In this document: positions 37,299 through 41,662 of the stretch, one piece after another
Layout of the letters: each line of letters starts with the position of its first letter
Position numbering within the stretch: position 1 is the first letter of the stretch
Assembly: GCF_013409935.1 (NCBI RefSeq)
Contig: NZ_JACCCO010000003.1
Span: 868,001-932,000, forward strand
Source: Streptosporangium sandarakinum
GTDB taxonomy: Bacteria; Actinomycetota; Actinomycetes; Streptosporangiales; Streptosporangiaceae
Direction of reading: 5' to 3'
Length of the DNA: 64,000 bases
Program-made: the position numbers and the translations under genes
The notes under the pieces: generated by a model
What the model was told of the DNA's origin: nothing
What the model saw: the letters and a program-made list of their open reading frames with translations, nothing else
The model's database searches: none

Positions 37299-37472
37299 AT
37301 GATGGGTTTCATTGCGCGGGCCTTCCTCGATGACAAGAACAAACCGCAAGTATTCGCACTGATCACCGAGGCTGACAAGATCTTTTTCTTATGGTGGCCG
37401 GATCAGGACACCCCCTGGACAAAAGACCCGTGGAAGGTTCCACCGCTCACGGCCGCGGCTGCTGCTGGGTGA
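37299..37472 (+). CDS. Candidate small ORF (57 residues) with a TTA codon
   Basis: ATG 37299 to TGA 37472 encodes MMGFIARAFLDDKNKPQVFA, then LITEADKIFFLWWPDQDTPW and a proline-rich tail. The text looks protein-like, with hydrophobic core and Trp pairs, but third-position GC is well below that of neighbours, one leucine is TTA, and no ribosome site precedes the ATG. The last 26 nt overlap the agmatine deiminase gene on the other strand. It may be a true small gene, a remnant, or chance. Confidence 0.35.
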   Translation: MMGFIARAFLDDKNKPQVFALITEADKIFFLWWPDQDTPWTKDPWKVPPLTAAAAAG

Positions 37473-38448
37473 TGCAGTGGATCCCGCCGCCGAGGGCGAA
37501 GATGGGCCGGGCGTCCACGGTCTCGATGGCGCGCCCGGGGAAGAGCCGGGCGAACACCTCCGCCGCCGCGGCGTCGCGCGGGTCGCCGAACGAGCACAGC
37601 AGCGCCAGGCCGTTGGCCAGGTAGTGGTTGATGTACGAGTAGTCGACGAGCTCGCCGTCCACCTCGCGGGTCTCCGGGGCGGGCAGCTCGACGACCTCCA
37701 GCGCCCGGCCCCGGGCGTCGGTCGCCGACCGCAGGATCCGCAGGTTCTCCCGGGTCACCTCGTGGTCGGGATGGTCCGGGTCGGACTGGACGTGGCAGAG
37801 CACCAGGCCGGGACGGGCGAAGCAGGCCAGCAGGTCCACGTGGCCGCTGGTGCCGTACCGGCCGTAGTCGGCGGTCAGGCCGCGCGGCAGCCAGATCACC
37901 TTCCGCGCGCCGATCCGGTCGCGCAGCTCGGCCTCGACCCGCTCCCGGGTCCAGCCGGGGTTGCGCCTCTCGCCGAGCTGGACGGTCTCGGTGACGATGA
38001 CCGTGCCCTCCCCGTCGACGTGGATGCCGCCGCCCTCGTTGACCATCTCCGAACGGAACCGCGTCGCGCCCGCGCGCTCCAGCACGGCCGCCGCCACCAG
38101 GTCGTCCTTGGCGTGGGCGTGCCAGCCCCAGCCGTTGAACGTCCAGTCCACCCCGGCCAGGCCGCCGGCGCCGTCCACCAGGAAGGTCGGGCCGTTGTCG
38201 CGCATCCAGCAGTCGTCCAGCGGCTGCTCCATCACCTCGACCTCCGGGGCCAGCCATCGGGCGGCGGACTCCCGCTCGCCGGGATCGACGACCATCGTGA
38301 CAGGCTCGTAGCGGACGATCGTGTTGGCCACGGCCGACCAGGCGCGGTGGGCGGCCTCGGCGCCGGCGTCGAGGGTGTAGCCGGGCACCGGCCAGGACAT
38401 CCAGGTGCGCTCGTGCGGGTGCCATTCCGGCGGCATGAAGAACAACAC
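37447..38448 (-). CDS. aguA: Agmatine deiminase (peptidyl-arginine-deiminase family)
   Basis: 333 residues from GTG 38448, with GGAG four bases upstream. The enzyme converts agmatine to N-carbamoylputrescine and ammonia. Family motifs: MPPEWHPHERTWMSWPVPG, DDCWMRDNGPTFLVD (substrate Asp pair), SEMVNEGGGIHVDGEGTVIV (catalytic Glu/His region), YGRYGTSGHVDLLACFARPG and the C-terminal nucleophile GGGIHCITQQQP (C325). It is the third gene of an apparent operon with ureAB and ureC-like genes. No AguB (N-carbamoylputrescine amidase) is encoded in the window. Confidence 0.94.
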   Translation of the reverse strand: MLFFMPPEWHPHERTWMSWPVPGYTLDAGAEAAHRAWSAVANTIVRYEPVTMVVDPGERESAARWLAPEVEVMEQPLDDCWMRDNGPTFLVDGAGGLAGVDWTFNGWGWHAHAKDDLVAAAVLERAGATRFRSEMVNEGGGIHVDGEGTVIVTETVQLGERRNPGWTRERVEAELRDRIGARKVIWLPRGLTADYGRYGTSGHVDLLACFARPGLVLCHVQSDPDHPDHEVTRENLRILRSATDARGRALEVVELPAPETREVDGELVDYSYINHYLANGLALLCSFGDPRDAAAAEVFARLFPGRAIETVDARPIFALGGGIHCITQQQPRP

Positions 38449-38534
38449 GGGACTCCTTCTGTGGTGGGGCCGGGCCGCCGGAGGCCGCGGGCCGTCCGGC
38501 GGCCTCCGGGGCCGGGGGTCGTGGGATGAGGCGT

Positions 38535-38562
38535 CCGGGCCGTCCCGGACGGGACGGCCCGG
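38535..38562. other. 12-bp perfect hairpin between ureC-like and aguA
   Basis: CCGGGCCGTCCC and GGGACGGCCCGG pair around GGAC in the 145-nt gap between the two genes. It has no U-tract. It may attenuate or stabilise the upstream part of the message. Nearby, aagtacagg plus about eight following bases is directly repeated at 38580 and 38599, duplicating the end of ureC. Confidence 0.6.
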
Positions 38563-38593
38563 AGACGGGACGGTCGGGGGAAGTACAGGGCGG

Positions 38594-40243
38594 TCAGAGG
38601 AAGTACAGGCGGCTCAGGGAGACGGACTCGGCGGGCTCCGAGCGCACCGGCTCGCCGTCGAGGGTGACCAGGCCGGCCGCGTCCACCCGCACCTCGCCGA
38701 GGCGCGCGTTGCGCACCAGGTCGGCGGGGCCGATGCCGCGGGTGCCGCGCACGGCGACCCGGCGGCGGCGGGTGGTCATGCGGTCGTCGCCGGCCTCGAC
38801 GGCGGCCCGGCTGACGAACGCCACCGACAGGTCGGCGGCGGTCGCGCCGTGCGCGCCGAACTGCGGGCCCAGCACCAGCGGCTCGCAGATGTCGGTGGAG
38901 GCGTTCGGGTCGCCGGTGACGCCGTAGGCGGGGAAACCGGCCTTCAGCACGAGCTGCGGCTTGGCGCCGAAGTGGTCGGGCCGCCACAGCACGATGTCGG
39001 CCAGCTTGCCCGGCTCCAGCGAGCCGACCTCGTGCGCCAGGCCGTGCGCGATGGCCGGGTTGATCGTCAGCTTGGCGAGGTAGCGCAGCACCCGCTCGTT
39101 GTCGTGCCGCTCCGGGGCGCCCAGCTCGGCCTTCATCTTCCCCGCCATGGCGAACGTCCGGCGCACCGTCTCACCGGCCCGGCCCATGCCCTGGGCGTCG
39201 GAGGAGGTGATGCCGATGACCCCGAGGTCGTGCAGCACGTCCTCGGCCCCCATCGTGCCGGCCCGGATCCGGTCCCTGGCCAGCGCGGCGTCCCCGGGCA
39301 GCTCGGGCCGCAGGCCGTGCACCGAGACGATCATCCCGTGGTGCTCGGCGACCGCGTCGCGGCCGAAGGGCAGCGTCGGATTGGTGGAGGAGCCGATGAC
39401 GTTGGGAACGCCGGCCAGCCGCAGCACGTTCGGCACGTGGCCGCCGCCGCAGCCCTCGATGTGGAAGGCGTGGATCGTGCGGCCGTCGAGCACGGCCAGG
39501 GTGTCCTCCACCGACAGGCACTCGTTCAGCCCGTCGGTGTGCAGGGCCACCTGCACGTCGTGCTCCTCGGCGACCCGCAGCGCGGTGTCCAGCGCCCGGG
39601 TGTGCGCCCCCATGTCCTCGTGCACCTTGAAGCCGCTCGCGCCGCCCTCGGCGAGGGCCTCCACCAGCGGGGCCGCGCCGGAGGACGAGCCGCGCGCCAG
39701 GAACCCGATGTTCACCGGCCAGGCGTCGAAGGCGTTGAACGCGTGGCGCAGCGCCCAGGGCGAGTTCACCCCGACGCCCCAGACCGGTCCGAACTCCTGG
39801 CCGATGATCGTGGTGACGCCGGAGGCCAGGGACGCCTCCATGATGCGCGGACTGAGCAGGTGCACGTGGGTGTCGATCGCCCCGGCCGTGGCGATCAGCC
39901 CCTCGCCGGACACGATCGCGGTGCCGGTGCCGACCACCACGTCCACGCCGTCGAGGGTGTCGGGGTTGCCCGCCCGGCCGATCGCGTGGATCCGCCCCTC
40001 CCGGACGCCGATCGAGGCGGTCCGCACGCCGAGGAACGGGTCCAGGATCAGAACGTTGCTGATCACCAGGTCGCAGGTGTCGCGTACCGAGGCGGCCTTG
40101 AGGTGCAGCCCGTCGCGCGCCGTCTTGGCGAACCCGGCGATGAACTCGTCCCCGGGCCGGTGGGCGTCGTGCTCGACCTCCACCACCAGGCCGGAGTCGC
40201 CCAGCCTGACCCGGTCGCCCCTGCGCGGGCCGTACACGCTCAC
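38594..40243 (-). CDS. ureC: Urease alpha-subunit-like metallohydrolase, altered flap
   Basis: 549 residues, slightly shorter than urease alpha (about 570). Every nickel-ligand position is kept: H126/H128 (GAIDTHVH), carbamylated K206 with H208 (GFKVHEDMG), H235 (VALHTDGLNE), H261 (AFHIEGCGGGH) and D349 (SSDAQGMGR). The mobile flap differs: the usual MVCHHL reads IVSVHGL, so the Cys is V308, the catalytic His is kept (H309) and the next His is G310. Start GTG 40243 overlaps the UreAB stop (GTGA). No UreD, E, F or G accessory gene is in the window. Urease is possible, but a related ureido substrate fits the neighbouring agmatine deiminase. Confidence 0.88.
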   Translation of the reverse strand: MSVYGPRRGDRVRLGDSGLVVEVEHDAHRPGDEFIAGFAKTARDGLHLKAASVRDTCDLVISNVLILDPFLGVRTASIGVREGRIHAIGRAGNPDTLDGVDVVVGTGTAIVSGEGLIATAGAIDTHVHLLSPRIMEASLASGVTTIIGQEFGPVWGVGVNSPWALRHAFNAFDAWPVNIGFLARGSSSGAAPLVEALAEGGASGFKVHEDMGAHTRALDTALRVAEEHDVQVALHTDGLNECLSVEDTLAVLDGRTIHAFHIEGCGGGHVPNVLRLAGVPNVIGSSTNPTLPFGRDAVAEHHGMIVSVHGLRPELPGDAALARDRIRAGTMGAEDVLHDLGVIGITSSDAQGMGRAGETVRRTFAMAGKMKAELGAPERHDNERVLRYLAKLTINPAIAHGLAHEVGSLEPGKLADIVLWRPDHFGAKPQLVLKAGFPAYGVTGDPNASTDICEPLVLGPQFGAHGATAADLSVAFVSRAAVEAGDDRMTTRRRRVAVRGTRGIGPADLVRNARLGEVRVDAAGLVTLDGEPVRSEPAESVSLSRLYFL

Positions 40244-41004
40244 CTGCCGCCCTCCTCGTCCGCTCCCGGAGATCCCGCTGTTCCCGCCGGTCCCGGACGT
40301 ACGGCGCCGTCCGCGGCCGGCCCCTCGCCGCCGAGATACCCGCAGGCCCGCGCCTTGTCCATGGCCCGCTCGAAGGCGCCGGGCGCGTCCAGCGGCCCGT
40401 CCACCAGCCCGGCGAACCCGATCGCCACCCGCGCGCCGCCGATGGGCACCAGCCGGACCGTACGGCCCTCGCCCGGGTCGAAGCGCACGGTCGAGCCCGC
40501 GGGCACGGCCAGGCGCCGCCCGTAGGCCGCCGCCCGGTCGAACCGCAGCCGCGGGTTGACCTCGAAGAAGTGGAAGTGCGAGGTGACGCTGATCGGCACG
40601 GTCGCGGTGTTGACCACCTCGACCTCGACGGCGTCCTCCTCCGCCACGGGCTCCCGGGGCGCCTCGACGACCGCGCCGGGGGCCTCGTCCCCGAGGGAGC
40701 CGCCGCCGAACGGGTCCGTCACCACGGCCAGCCGGGTGCCGTCGTCGAAGACCGCCTCGACCATCACCTCGGTGACGACGTCGGCCACCCCGGGCAGCAC
40801 GTCGTCCGGGCCCAGCACGGCGCGGCCCGCCGCGACGGCCTCGGCCAGCCGGGCGCCGTCGCGGGCGGCCTCGCAGACCGTGTCGGCGACCAGCGCGGTG
40901 GCCTCCGGCACGTTGAGCCGCAGGCCCCTGGCCCTCCTCGCCCGCGCCAGCTCCGCCGCGCCGAACAGCAGGAGCCGGTCGCGTTCCGTCGGTGTCAGCC
41001 GCAC
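40240..41004 (-). CDS. ureAB: Urease gamma-beta fusion-like subunit
   Basis: 254 residues from GTG 41004, with AGGAG upstream. Residues 1-100 are the gamma part (RLTPTERDRLLLFGAAELAR, then RARGLRLNVPEATALVADTV); after an acidic linker, residues 120-225 are the beta part (TATVPISVTSHFHFFEVNPR, LRFDRAAAYGRRLAVPAGST and RLVPIGGARVAIGFAGLVDG). Gamma-beta fusions are known in some bacteria. The C-terminal 30 residues are Gly/Pro-rich. It is the first gene of the operon, with two palindromic sites just before its start. Confidence 0.9.
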   Translation of the reverse strand: MRLTPTERDRLLLFGAAELARARRARGLRLNVPEATALVADTVCEAARDGARLAEAVAAGRAVLGPDDVLPGVADVVTEVMVEAVFDDGTRLAVVTDPFGGGSLGDEAPGAVVEAPREPVAEEDAVEVEVVNTATVPISVTSHFHFFEVNPRLRFDRAAAYGRRLAVPAGSTVRFDPGEGRTVRLVPIGGARVAIGFAGLVDGPLDAPGAFERAMDKARACGYLGGEGPAADGAVRPGPAGTAGSPGADEEGGR

Positions 41005-41068: not shown

Positions 41069-41662
41069 ATGACTGCGAAGCCGGCGCGCCCCGACGTGCG
41101 AGCCCACGTGCTGCGGGCGGCACTGCAGGCGATCGACGAGGTGGGGCCGGAGCGGCTGCGGGTCCGCGACATCGCCGAGCGGGCCGGCATGAGCAGCGGC
41201 CACGTCATGTACTACTTCGGCAGGCGCGACCGGCTGCTCGTCTCGACCCTCCTGCTCAGCGAGGACGAGCTGGCCGAGCGCTGCACGGCCGAGCTCGCGG
41301 CCGTCGCCGACCCGCGCGAGGCGGTCCGGCGACTGGTGGAGCTGTATCTCCCCGGCGGCGCGGGCGACGTCCGCTGGCGGCTGTGGGCCCAGGTCGTCGC
41401 CCAGCCGCCCCGGGACGAGGAGACACTGACCAGGATCGCCTCCTTCACCGGCACCTGGGTCCGCGAGCTGGCCGCCCTCGCGGTCCGGGGAGCGGGAGAG
41501 GGGACGTTCCGCCCGCTGGACGACCCGGAGGACTTCGCCGGACGGATCTGCCGGATCATGGACAGCCTCGCGGGAGACGTGTTACTCGGGCTGCCCGGCC
41601 GTGACGCCGGGTGGGCTCACGAGCAGGCCATGCGGGCGATCTCCCGGGAACTGCTGCCCTGA
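41069..41662 (+). CDS. TetR/AcrR-family regulator of the urease-like operon
   Basis: 197 residues. The N-terminal HTH reads VRDIAERAGMSSGHVMYYFG, typical of TetR proteins; the C-terminal ligand domain is helical, with TetR_C6-like text (DVRWRLWAQVVAQPPRDEE). It is divergent from ureAB, with paired palindromes in the 64-nt gap, so it probably represses both itself and the operon. The ligand may be a polyamine or ureido compound. The 3' end overlaps the convergent MFS gene by 81 nt. Confidence 0.9.
   Translation: MTAKPARPDVRAHVLRAALQAIDEVGPERLRVRDIAERAGMSSGHVMYYFGRRDRLLVSTLLLSEDELAERCTAELAAVADPREAVRRLVELYLPGGAGDVRWRLWAQVVAQPPRDEETLTRIASFTGTWVRELAALAVRGAGEGTFRPLDDPEDFAGRICRIMDSLAGDVLLGLPGRDAGWAHEQAMRAISRELLP

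Follow-up and report, generated by a model that had tools for sequence, protein, structure and literature searches.

In a 64,000-nucleotide stretch of the Streptosporangium sandarakinum genome (contig NZ_JACCCO010000003.1, positions 868,001 to 932,000; hereafter the window), we analysed a minus-strand operon at 37447-41004 that consists of ureAB, a ureC-like gene (ureC2) and aguA, in that order, with ureDEFG not adjacent. An earlier note on this DNA had proposed that the urease-like proteins hydrolyse N-carbamoylputrescine by a route other than AguB, and the comparative evidence of linkage, exclusion and replacement described below supports this. We consider it likely that the operon encodes a route from agmatine to putrescine in which UreABC2 hydrolyses N-carbamoylputrescine in place of AguB. 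In the two consecutive steps proposed, AguA would convert agmatine to N-carbamoylputrescine and ammonia, and UreABC2, a two-metal hydrolase of the urease fold whose pocket is altered, would attack the ureido carbonyl of N-carbamoylputrescine, yielding putrescine and then, via carbamate, ammonia and CO2. UreABC2 would thus fill the AguB role by non-orthologous replacement. From sequences and their genomic context we infer the substrate and products, the metal, and the role given below to Glu150.

The earlier note had the genes, their coordinates and the start at 41004 right. The ureAB gene (40240-41004, minus strand), a fusion of urease gamma and beta subunits (PF00547 and PF00699 in Pfam), starts there with a GTG behind a good ribosome site, AAAGGAG, and passed model NF009671 (327 bits, cut-off 243, in a scan taken from 41073). 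It overlaps by 4 bases with ureC2 (38594-40243, minus strand), whose 549-aa product, the large subunit, carries PF00449 and PF01979 (Amidohydro_1). After a gap of 145 bp follows aguA (37447-38448, minus strand), which encodes an agmatine deiminase homologue.

To describe the linkage of UreC2 and aguA, we used the best 80 of at least 535 relatives as named loci, which are not a random draw: 70 are from Streptomyces, and the others from Streptosporangium, Planobispora, Planomonospora, Thermoactinospora, Nonomuraea, Microtetraspora and one actinobacterium without a genus. The locus nearest to the window's UreC2, from Streptosporangium pseudovulgare, was 100% identical over the match. In all 80 loci aguA lay downstream of ureC2 on the same strand, and in 79 ureAB lay upstream, the contig of the remaining one being cut. 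We also searched 394 genomes of the class and found UreC2 (E 1e-190) in 58 genomes with 59 loci, and a gene of the PAD_porph family (PF04371, hereafter PAD; E 1e-50) in 106. When coordinates were compared by eye, aguA adjoined 40 of the 41 UreC2 loci at 84% identity or above. The single exception (L049 in G032) had a cytochrome P450 gene downstream, and its genome gave no PAD gene at E 1e-50. The pairing of UreC2 with aguA is beyond chance.

UreC2 and a carbon-nitrogen (C-N) hydrolase, counted at E 1e-60, excluded each other: they occurred in 58 and 34 of the 394 genomes, respectively, and together in none. Among the 106 PAD-positive genomes, 50 had UreC2, 26 had the C-N hydrolase and 30 had neither (Fisher exclusion p 1.7e-9, kinship ignored). 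These 30 comprised 22 with an amidase beside aguA, two with pairings in family f29 below the UreC2 threshold, and six (G155, G196, G210, G369, G393 and G423) with only PAD paralogues outside the AguA clade described below; G393 and G423 belong to family f17 and have neither UreC2 nor the C-N hydrolase. Amidase and C-N hydrolase can coexist, since in G462 an amidase adjoins aguA and a C-N hydrolase lies 80 kb off. An AguB-like C-N hydrolase was absent from all 40 tested UreC2 genomes of families f1, the window's family, and f17; of these, 30 had nitrilases that were 31-35% identical to it (best E 9.7e-35), and the other 10 had none at E 1e-30.

The earlier note had also raised the matter of an AguB gene elsewhere in the same genome. 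None was found in the 7.65-Mb genome of S. sandarakinum, where the best score of the AguB model was 99.7 bits, under the cut-off of 410, and the search for an AguB-like hydrolase gave nothing at E 1e-30. The strict AguB model was dropped as proof of absence because it passes in 0 of the 394 class genomes, and an actinobacterial AguB-like query was used instead; of the two tests, therefore, only the latter is informative. Putrescine carbamoyltransferase was rejected as a hidden second step, with 0 of the 58 UreC2 genomes over the cut-off and weaker carbamoyltransferase matches in all 58.

A natural replacement was seen in Streptomyces-type genomes. The order in Streptomyces is leuB-ilvE-ureAB-ureC-aguA-tetR, with all six genes present in 55 of the 80 named loci. 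In G381 and G464 the order is leuB-ilvE-aguA, with ureABC gone and fewer than 200 bases between ilvE and aguA, and in G150 the contig stops at aguA. UreC2 was not found in these three genomes in the 394-genome search, and all three carry the C-N hydrolase (65-67% identity), either on a different contig or at a distance of 2 Mb.

We then compared what stands beside aguA, taking PAD neighbourhoods from every PAD-positive genome that lacks UreC2 (56 genomes). A tree was built from 92 PAD proteins, with 16 of the 80 named loci among them, and partners within 3.5 kb were counted. The window protein fell into an AguA clade of 74 rows with a Shimodaira-Hasegawa-like approximate likelihood ratio test (SH-aLRT) support of 99. 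Its partners were UreABC in 28 rows, an amidase (PF01425) in 22 and the C-N hydrolase in 19; three Streptomyces-type rows had none nearby, and two (L204 and L208) lay at contig ends, with the C-N hydrolase on another contig of the same genomes. Here "Streptomyces-type" denotes genus g48 of family f17, so called by identity and gene order. The UreABC count carries no meaning in itself, because 26 Streptomyces and Streptosporangium rows were picked via UreC2; the informative part is the partners of the remaining rows. The 18 rows outside the clade were not counted; they are L184, L185 and L187 near UreC2, L225_0 beside a C-N hydrolase, and 14 without a partner. One short L225 piece and the second PAD genes of about ten Streptomyces-type genomes were left out.

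The tree was extended by 16 rows, 108 in total, with 15 further PAD loci. The AguA clade then held 83 rows, of which 28 had UreABC, 23 the amidase, 20 the C-N hydrolase and 12 no partner nearby; G451 joined the amidase group, G363 the C-N hydrolase group, and seven new rows were partnerless. Of the 12 partnerless rows, five are in genomes with the C-N hydrolase elsewhere and seven (G137, G250, G318, G325, G343, G361 and G437) in genomes with UreC2 elsewhere. Every one of the 83 rows thus comes from a genome that holds at least one of UreABC, C-N hydrolase and amidase, and the unlinked rows therefore point to UreC2 or the C-N hydrolase in trans.

The nearest NCBIfam model of the C-N hydrolase is N-carbamoylputrescine amidase, at 219 bits and under the cut-off of 410, and its nearest solved protein is the N-carbamoylputrescine amidohydrolase 5h8i; as far as sequence says, it is the AguB counterpart of these bacteria. 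The amidase passed NF005127 (PRK06565) with 1037 bits (cut-off 575) and belongs to the amidase-signature family; it occupies the same place next to aguA as UreABC2, and its predicted function is probably a further replacement of AguB. This amidase was seen at L173:4728-6428 and at 22 other loci beside aguA, and its closest solved structure is 6te4. A putrescine oxidase homologue, identified by comparing the L166 protein with solved structures, adjoins aguA in L166, L167, L171, L220, L229 and L236, six loci of the amidase and C-N hydrolase types, and also in L252; it is a hint at putrescine as the product. In the f29 loci L209 and L214 the order is aguA-ureAB-ureC; we read these as a separate pairing, because their AguA proteins branch within the C-N hydrolase and amidase types, and their UreC is only 54-55% identical to the window's.

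The window's UreC2 belongs to the urease family and is set apart within it. Homology to urease gamma, beta and alpha subunits is present, and UreC2 matched solved ureases with E down to 1e-152. It scored 603 bits against the urease-alpha equivalog TIGR01792, short of the cut-off of 680, and passed the broader subfamily model NF009686 (719 bits, cut-off 354). The genome of S. sandarakinum has three UreC genes and one PAD gene; UreC2 is 48% identical to the normal UreC and forms a clade separate from both normal UreC and the third type, UreC3 (SH-aLRT 100). In an alignment of 67 sequences (45 UreC2-like, 13 normal UreC and 9 UreC3), His126, His128, Lys206, His208, His235, His261, His309, Arg325, Arg327 and Asp349 were invariant in all 67, which bears out the statement of the earlier note that the metal ligands are kept. 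We take these ten positions to be those that in urease bind the metals or hold the carbamylated lysine, the pair of catalytic histidines, the arginine and the aspartate. The catalytic and metal-ligand positions were likewise unchanged across all 80 named loci.

We compared the pocket between 44 UreC2 and 13 normal UreC, leaving out the outlier L052. Phe38, Gln149, Glu150, Cys265 and Gly352 were fixed or nearly fixed in UreC2; from normal UreC to UreC2, Gly-Gly changes to Gln-Glu at 149-150, Ala to Cys at 265 and Ala to Gly at 352. A short deletion after position 160 spans four columns, or three against some normal UreC. Near-fixed changes also occur at 77, 238 and 294, and the N terminus is shorter. 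Position 150 (Glu150 codon at 39794-39796, minus strand) was acidic in all 44 UreC2 (43 Glu, 1 Asp) and Gly in all 13 normal UreC and all 9 UreC3; UreC3 shares the deletion and Gly352 with UreC2, yet has Gly at 150. In urease, urea is held by the backbone oxygens of Ala170 and Ala366. In Sporosarcina pasteurii numbering, we assume the conserved urease pocket to include Gly166, Ala170, Ala366 and the flap MVCHH, with position 150 lying four residues before Ala170 and position 352 corresponding to Ala366. UreC2 departs from this pocket by Glu150, Val154, Gly352 and the flap IVSVHGL, and some normal UreC in the alignment likewise vary at Ala170 and in the flap. The shorter loop, the Gly in place of Ala and the new acidic residue would fit a urea bearing an aminoalkyl chain. 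We infer that Glu150, a candidate ammonium-binding residue, could hold the terminal ammonium group of N-carbamoylputrescine.

The earlier note had rested on the flap instead. The flap at residues 305-311 (39311-39331, minus strand), which includes the catalytic-type His309, does read IVSVHGL, versus TMVCHHL in the genome's own urease. Replacement of the flap Cys is tolerated in ureases. Over the 80 named loci the wording was IVSVHDL in 60, IVSVHGL in 9, IVSAHGL in 8 and IVAVHGL in 3. We dropped the flap as key evidence because its wording varies while aguA stays in all 80 loci; the consistent changes are those at 149-150, 265 and 352 and the short deletion.

Several observations weigh against the N-carbamoylputrescine reading of UreABC2. 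Of the 18 more distant UreC2 loci (56-77% identity), 15 had no agmatine deiminase shown beside them, and 8 of the 58 UreC2 genomes gave no PAD gene at E 1e-50, namely G032 and 7 of the 18 distant ones. The UreC2 clade may therefore have other substrates, and the idea that it always sits with aguA, raised as a question in the earlier note, was kept for the close clade and dropped for the clade as a whole. The genome counts take no account of phylogeny, and G381, G464 and G150 represent one event, because their AguA form one clade. The amidase was counted in aguA neighbourhoods only. Support for the AguA clade weakened in the extended tree, to 92 with 83 rows and to 83 with 82 rows after removal of the long L240. 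The window's AguA reached 305 bits against the agmatine deiminase model TIGR03380, under the cut-off of 381.8. Nitrilases 31-35% identical to the AguB-like protein are present in 30 of the 32 Streptomyces-type UreC2 genomes. Finally, SCO6414 is listed among the Streptomyces coelicolor homologues of the agmatine pathway in PMC3293853, and is taken to be the AguB candidate of that paper.

The distant loci are not uniform. One of the 15, G384, is undecidable: its ureC lies at a contig end, and so does a piece of AguA of the G355 type. In G140 and G355 an AguA near UreC2, in opposite orientation, passes TIGR03380 (518 and 552 bits), and in G343 a PAD paralogue lies near UreC2. The neighbours of UreC2 at L188 include PotA-, PotC- and PotD-like proteins; among these, the PotA-like protein alone passes a polyamine model (356.4 bits, cut-off 355.6). 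At L194 a PotD-like neighbour stays under the cut-off. These transport genes point towards polyamines even without aguA. At several distant UreC2 loci and some UreC3 loci, the adjoining protein belongs to one Amidohydro_3 cluster.

A wider reading, which we offer tentatively and with some doubt, is that UreABC2 represents a non-urease branch for mono-substituted ureas, N-carbamoylputrescine first among them, with a metal centre that is free of UreDEFG and perhaps contains no nickel, and with UreC3 as a sister branch, maybe for purine ureides. The earlier note was correct that accessory genes are absent nearby; UreD and UreG are nevertheless present in the genome, on contig C1, in a normal urease cluster with UreA and UreB. 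Across the 58 UreC2 genomes, a UreD match was found in 40 (39 over the cut-off) and a UreG match at 1e-10 in 40 (38 over the cut-off). Both were absent from 16 of the 58 in a search that covered UreD and UreG and not UreE or UreF: G007, G137, G250, G304, G311, G318, G319, G331, G337, G349, G355, G361, G384, G390, G396 and G437. Most of these have a distant UreC2; in G007 the ureABC-aguA operon is complete, and a search at E 1e-60 gave no further UreC. Completeness is 100% for G319 and 95-99% for the others, and draft gaps can explain single absences, hardly all sixteen. In the f17 genome G182, UreG is lacking and UreD matches are sub-threshold only. Because 16 of the 58 genomes lack both UreD and UreG, maturation of UreC2 may differ, and the pattern suggests that UreC2 might need no urease accessory proteins.

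The same data bear on the idea that UreABC2 is a second urease of the ordinary kind, which hydrolyses urea and is matured by the accessory proteins of the normal cluster, so that adjacency to aguA reflects common nitrogen regulation only. The conserved metal-ligand and catalytic positions and the frequent UreD matches agree with it, and SCO5525-5526 are given as urea-utilising genes in PMC3293853. We nevertheless judge it unlikely: AguA produces no urea, the pocket changes are lineage-specific, sixteen genomes lack both UreD and UreG, and a second urease leaves unexplained both the AguB-like hydrolase or amidase in the same position and the mutual exclusion of AguB-like hydrolase and UreC2.

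It is quite unlikely that the substrate of AguA is a guanidino compound other than agmatine and that UreABC2 takes the resulting ureido compound, with the same chemistry on a different side chain. The sub-cut-off score of the window's AguA, the several PAD paralogues in these genomes and the presence of UreC2 without any PAD gene would be in keeping with such a substrate. The window's AguA matched PAD_porph with 372 bits, and its best solved matches are the agmatine deiminases 3h7c and 1vkp; its GGGIHCITQQQ aligns with the same motif in 3h7c, and we take the C-terminal Cys motif GG-IHCITQQ to be catalytic in agmatine deiminase. Against another compound stand these solved relatives, the homologues of putrescine oxidase and N-carbamoylputrescine amidohydrolase among the neighbours of the AguA clade, and the model-grade AguA near UreC2 in G140 and G355. 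That UreABC2 is regulatory or moonlighting and not catalytic on small ureides, the second step falling to an unlinked nitrilase of the SCO6414 type, could draw on the nitrilases of Streptomyces-type genomes and is very improbable given the invariant catalytic positions in all 80 loci, the lack of any such nitrilase at E 1e-30 in the 8 UreC2 genomes of the window's family (S. sandarakinum included) and the replacement pattern of UreC2 and AguB-like hydrolase.

Among known systems, the nickel urease (UreABC with UreD/E/F/G; PDB 4z42/6yl3, 1fwj and 4ubp) shares the fold, the subunits and the metal-ligand and catalytic positions with UreABC2, which differs in its gamma-beta fusion, accessory-free operon, aguA partner, deletion, and altered pocket and flap. 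The iron urease UreA2B2 of Helicobacter mustelae acts on urea and is said not to need the nickel accessory proteins; it turned up among the solved-structure matches of UreC2, its structure probably being PDB 3qga. AguB, a Cys-Glu-Lys nitrilase, would share the reaction and the pathway place with UreABC2, and its fold and chemistry are unrelated. The Streptomyces ure(AB)C pair (SCO5525-5526) is the same gene pair as the window's. That Streptomyces has clusters consisting of ure(AB)C and nothing else is already in print (PMC2492869, PMC5489568); they are treated as urease, with no mention of agmatine deiminase or another substrate in the passages seen. In PMC3293853, SCO5525-5526 are named ureABC, and SCO5527 is counted among the homologues of the arginine decarboxylase pathway. 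PMC3534580 describes an Arthrobacter growing on agmatine though the pathway was predicted to be incomplete. The locus tags in PMC4991794 belong to other genes and were left aside. We found no proposal of an N-carbamoylputrescine function for UreABC in the literature covered, mostly freely accessible journals seen in part; within that literature the genes are known and the proposed function appears new.

The observation is widely conserved and meaningful. Urease is regarded as nearly single-substrate, and the urease alpha gene serves as a marker of urea use in soil and genome surveys. If the proposed function is true, large numbers of Streptomyces-type genomes carry this gene under a wrong annotation, the agmatine deiminase route gains a further solution for its second step, and a natural variant becomes available for testing how the specificity and the nickel maturation of urease evolved.

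Divergent from ureAB, across a gap of 64 bp, lies a gene for a TetR/BetI-type regulator (41069-41662, plus strand; PF00440 and PF13977). It adjoins the operon in most of the window's relatives examined; in most Streptomyces loci the TetR gene sits downstream of aguA instead. This protein is the probable regulator of the operon. At 41582-41662 its gene and a convergent major facilitator superfamily transporter gene share 81 bases at their 3' ends.

The other urease genes also showed some features of their own. Between the normal ureA and ureB (L001:2321-3292) lies a frame of 323 aa with a His-rich tail, by eye a CbiX-like chelatase or nickel-handling protein. In G105 a second UreC2-like gene (L052:6814-11677; 72% identity) lacks the pocket signature, with Gln-Asn for Gln-Glu and Ala at 352; of its neighbours, one protein has no Pfam match and one a weak B12-binding match. 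The UreC3 pair of S. sandarakinum (L005:8031-13330; contig C1, about 1102030-1107330) consists of a fused UreAB3 and of UreC3; an Amidohydro_3 protein comes next. The flap of UreC3 reads MTVHRQN, and there are two residues fewer around its GGGH motif. Nearby are genes that to the eye resemble those for urate oxidase and hydroxyisourate hydrolase, and a purine ureide may be the substrate of UreC3. In four other genomes UreC3 stands by a regulator of the same cluster, one of which was scanned and is of the PucR type.

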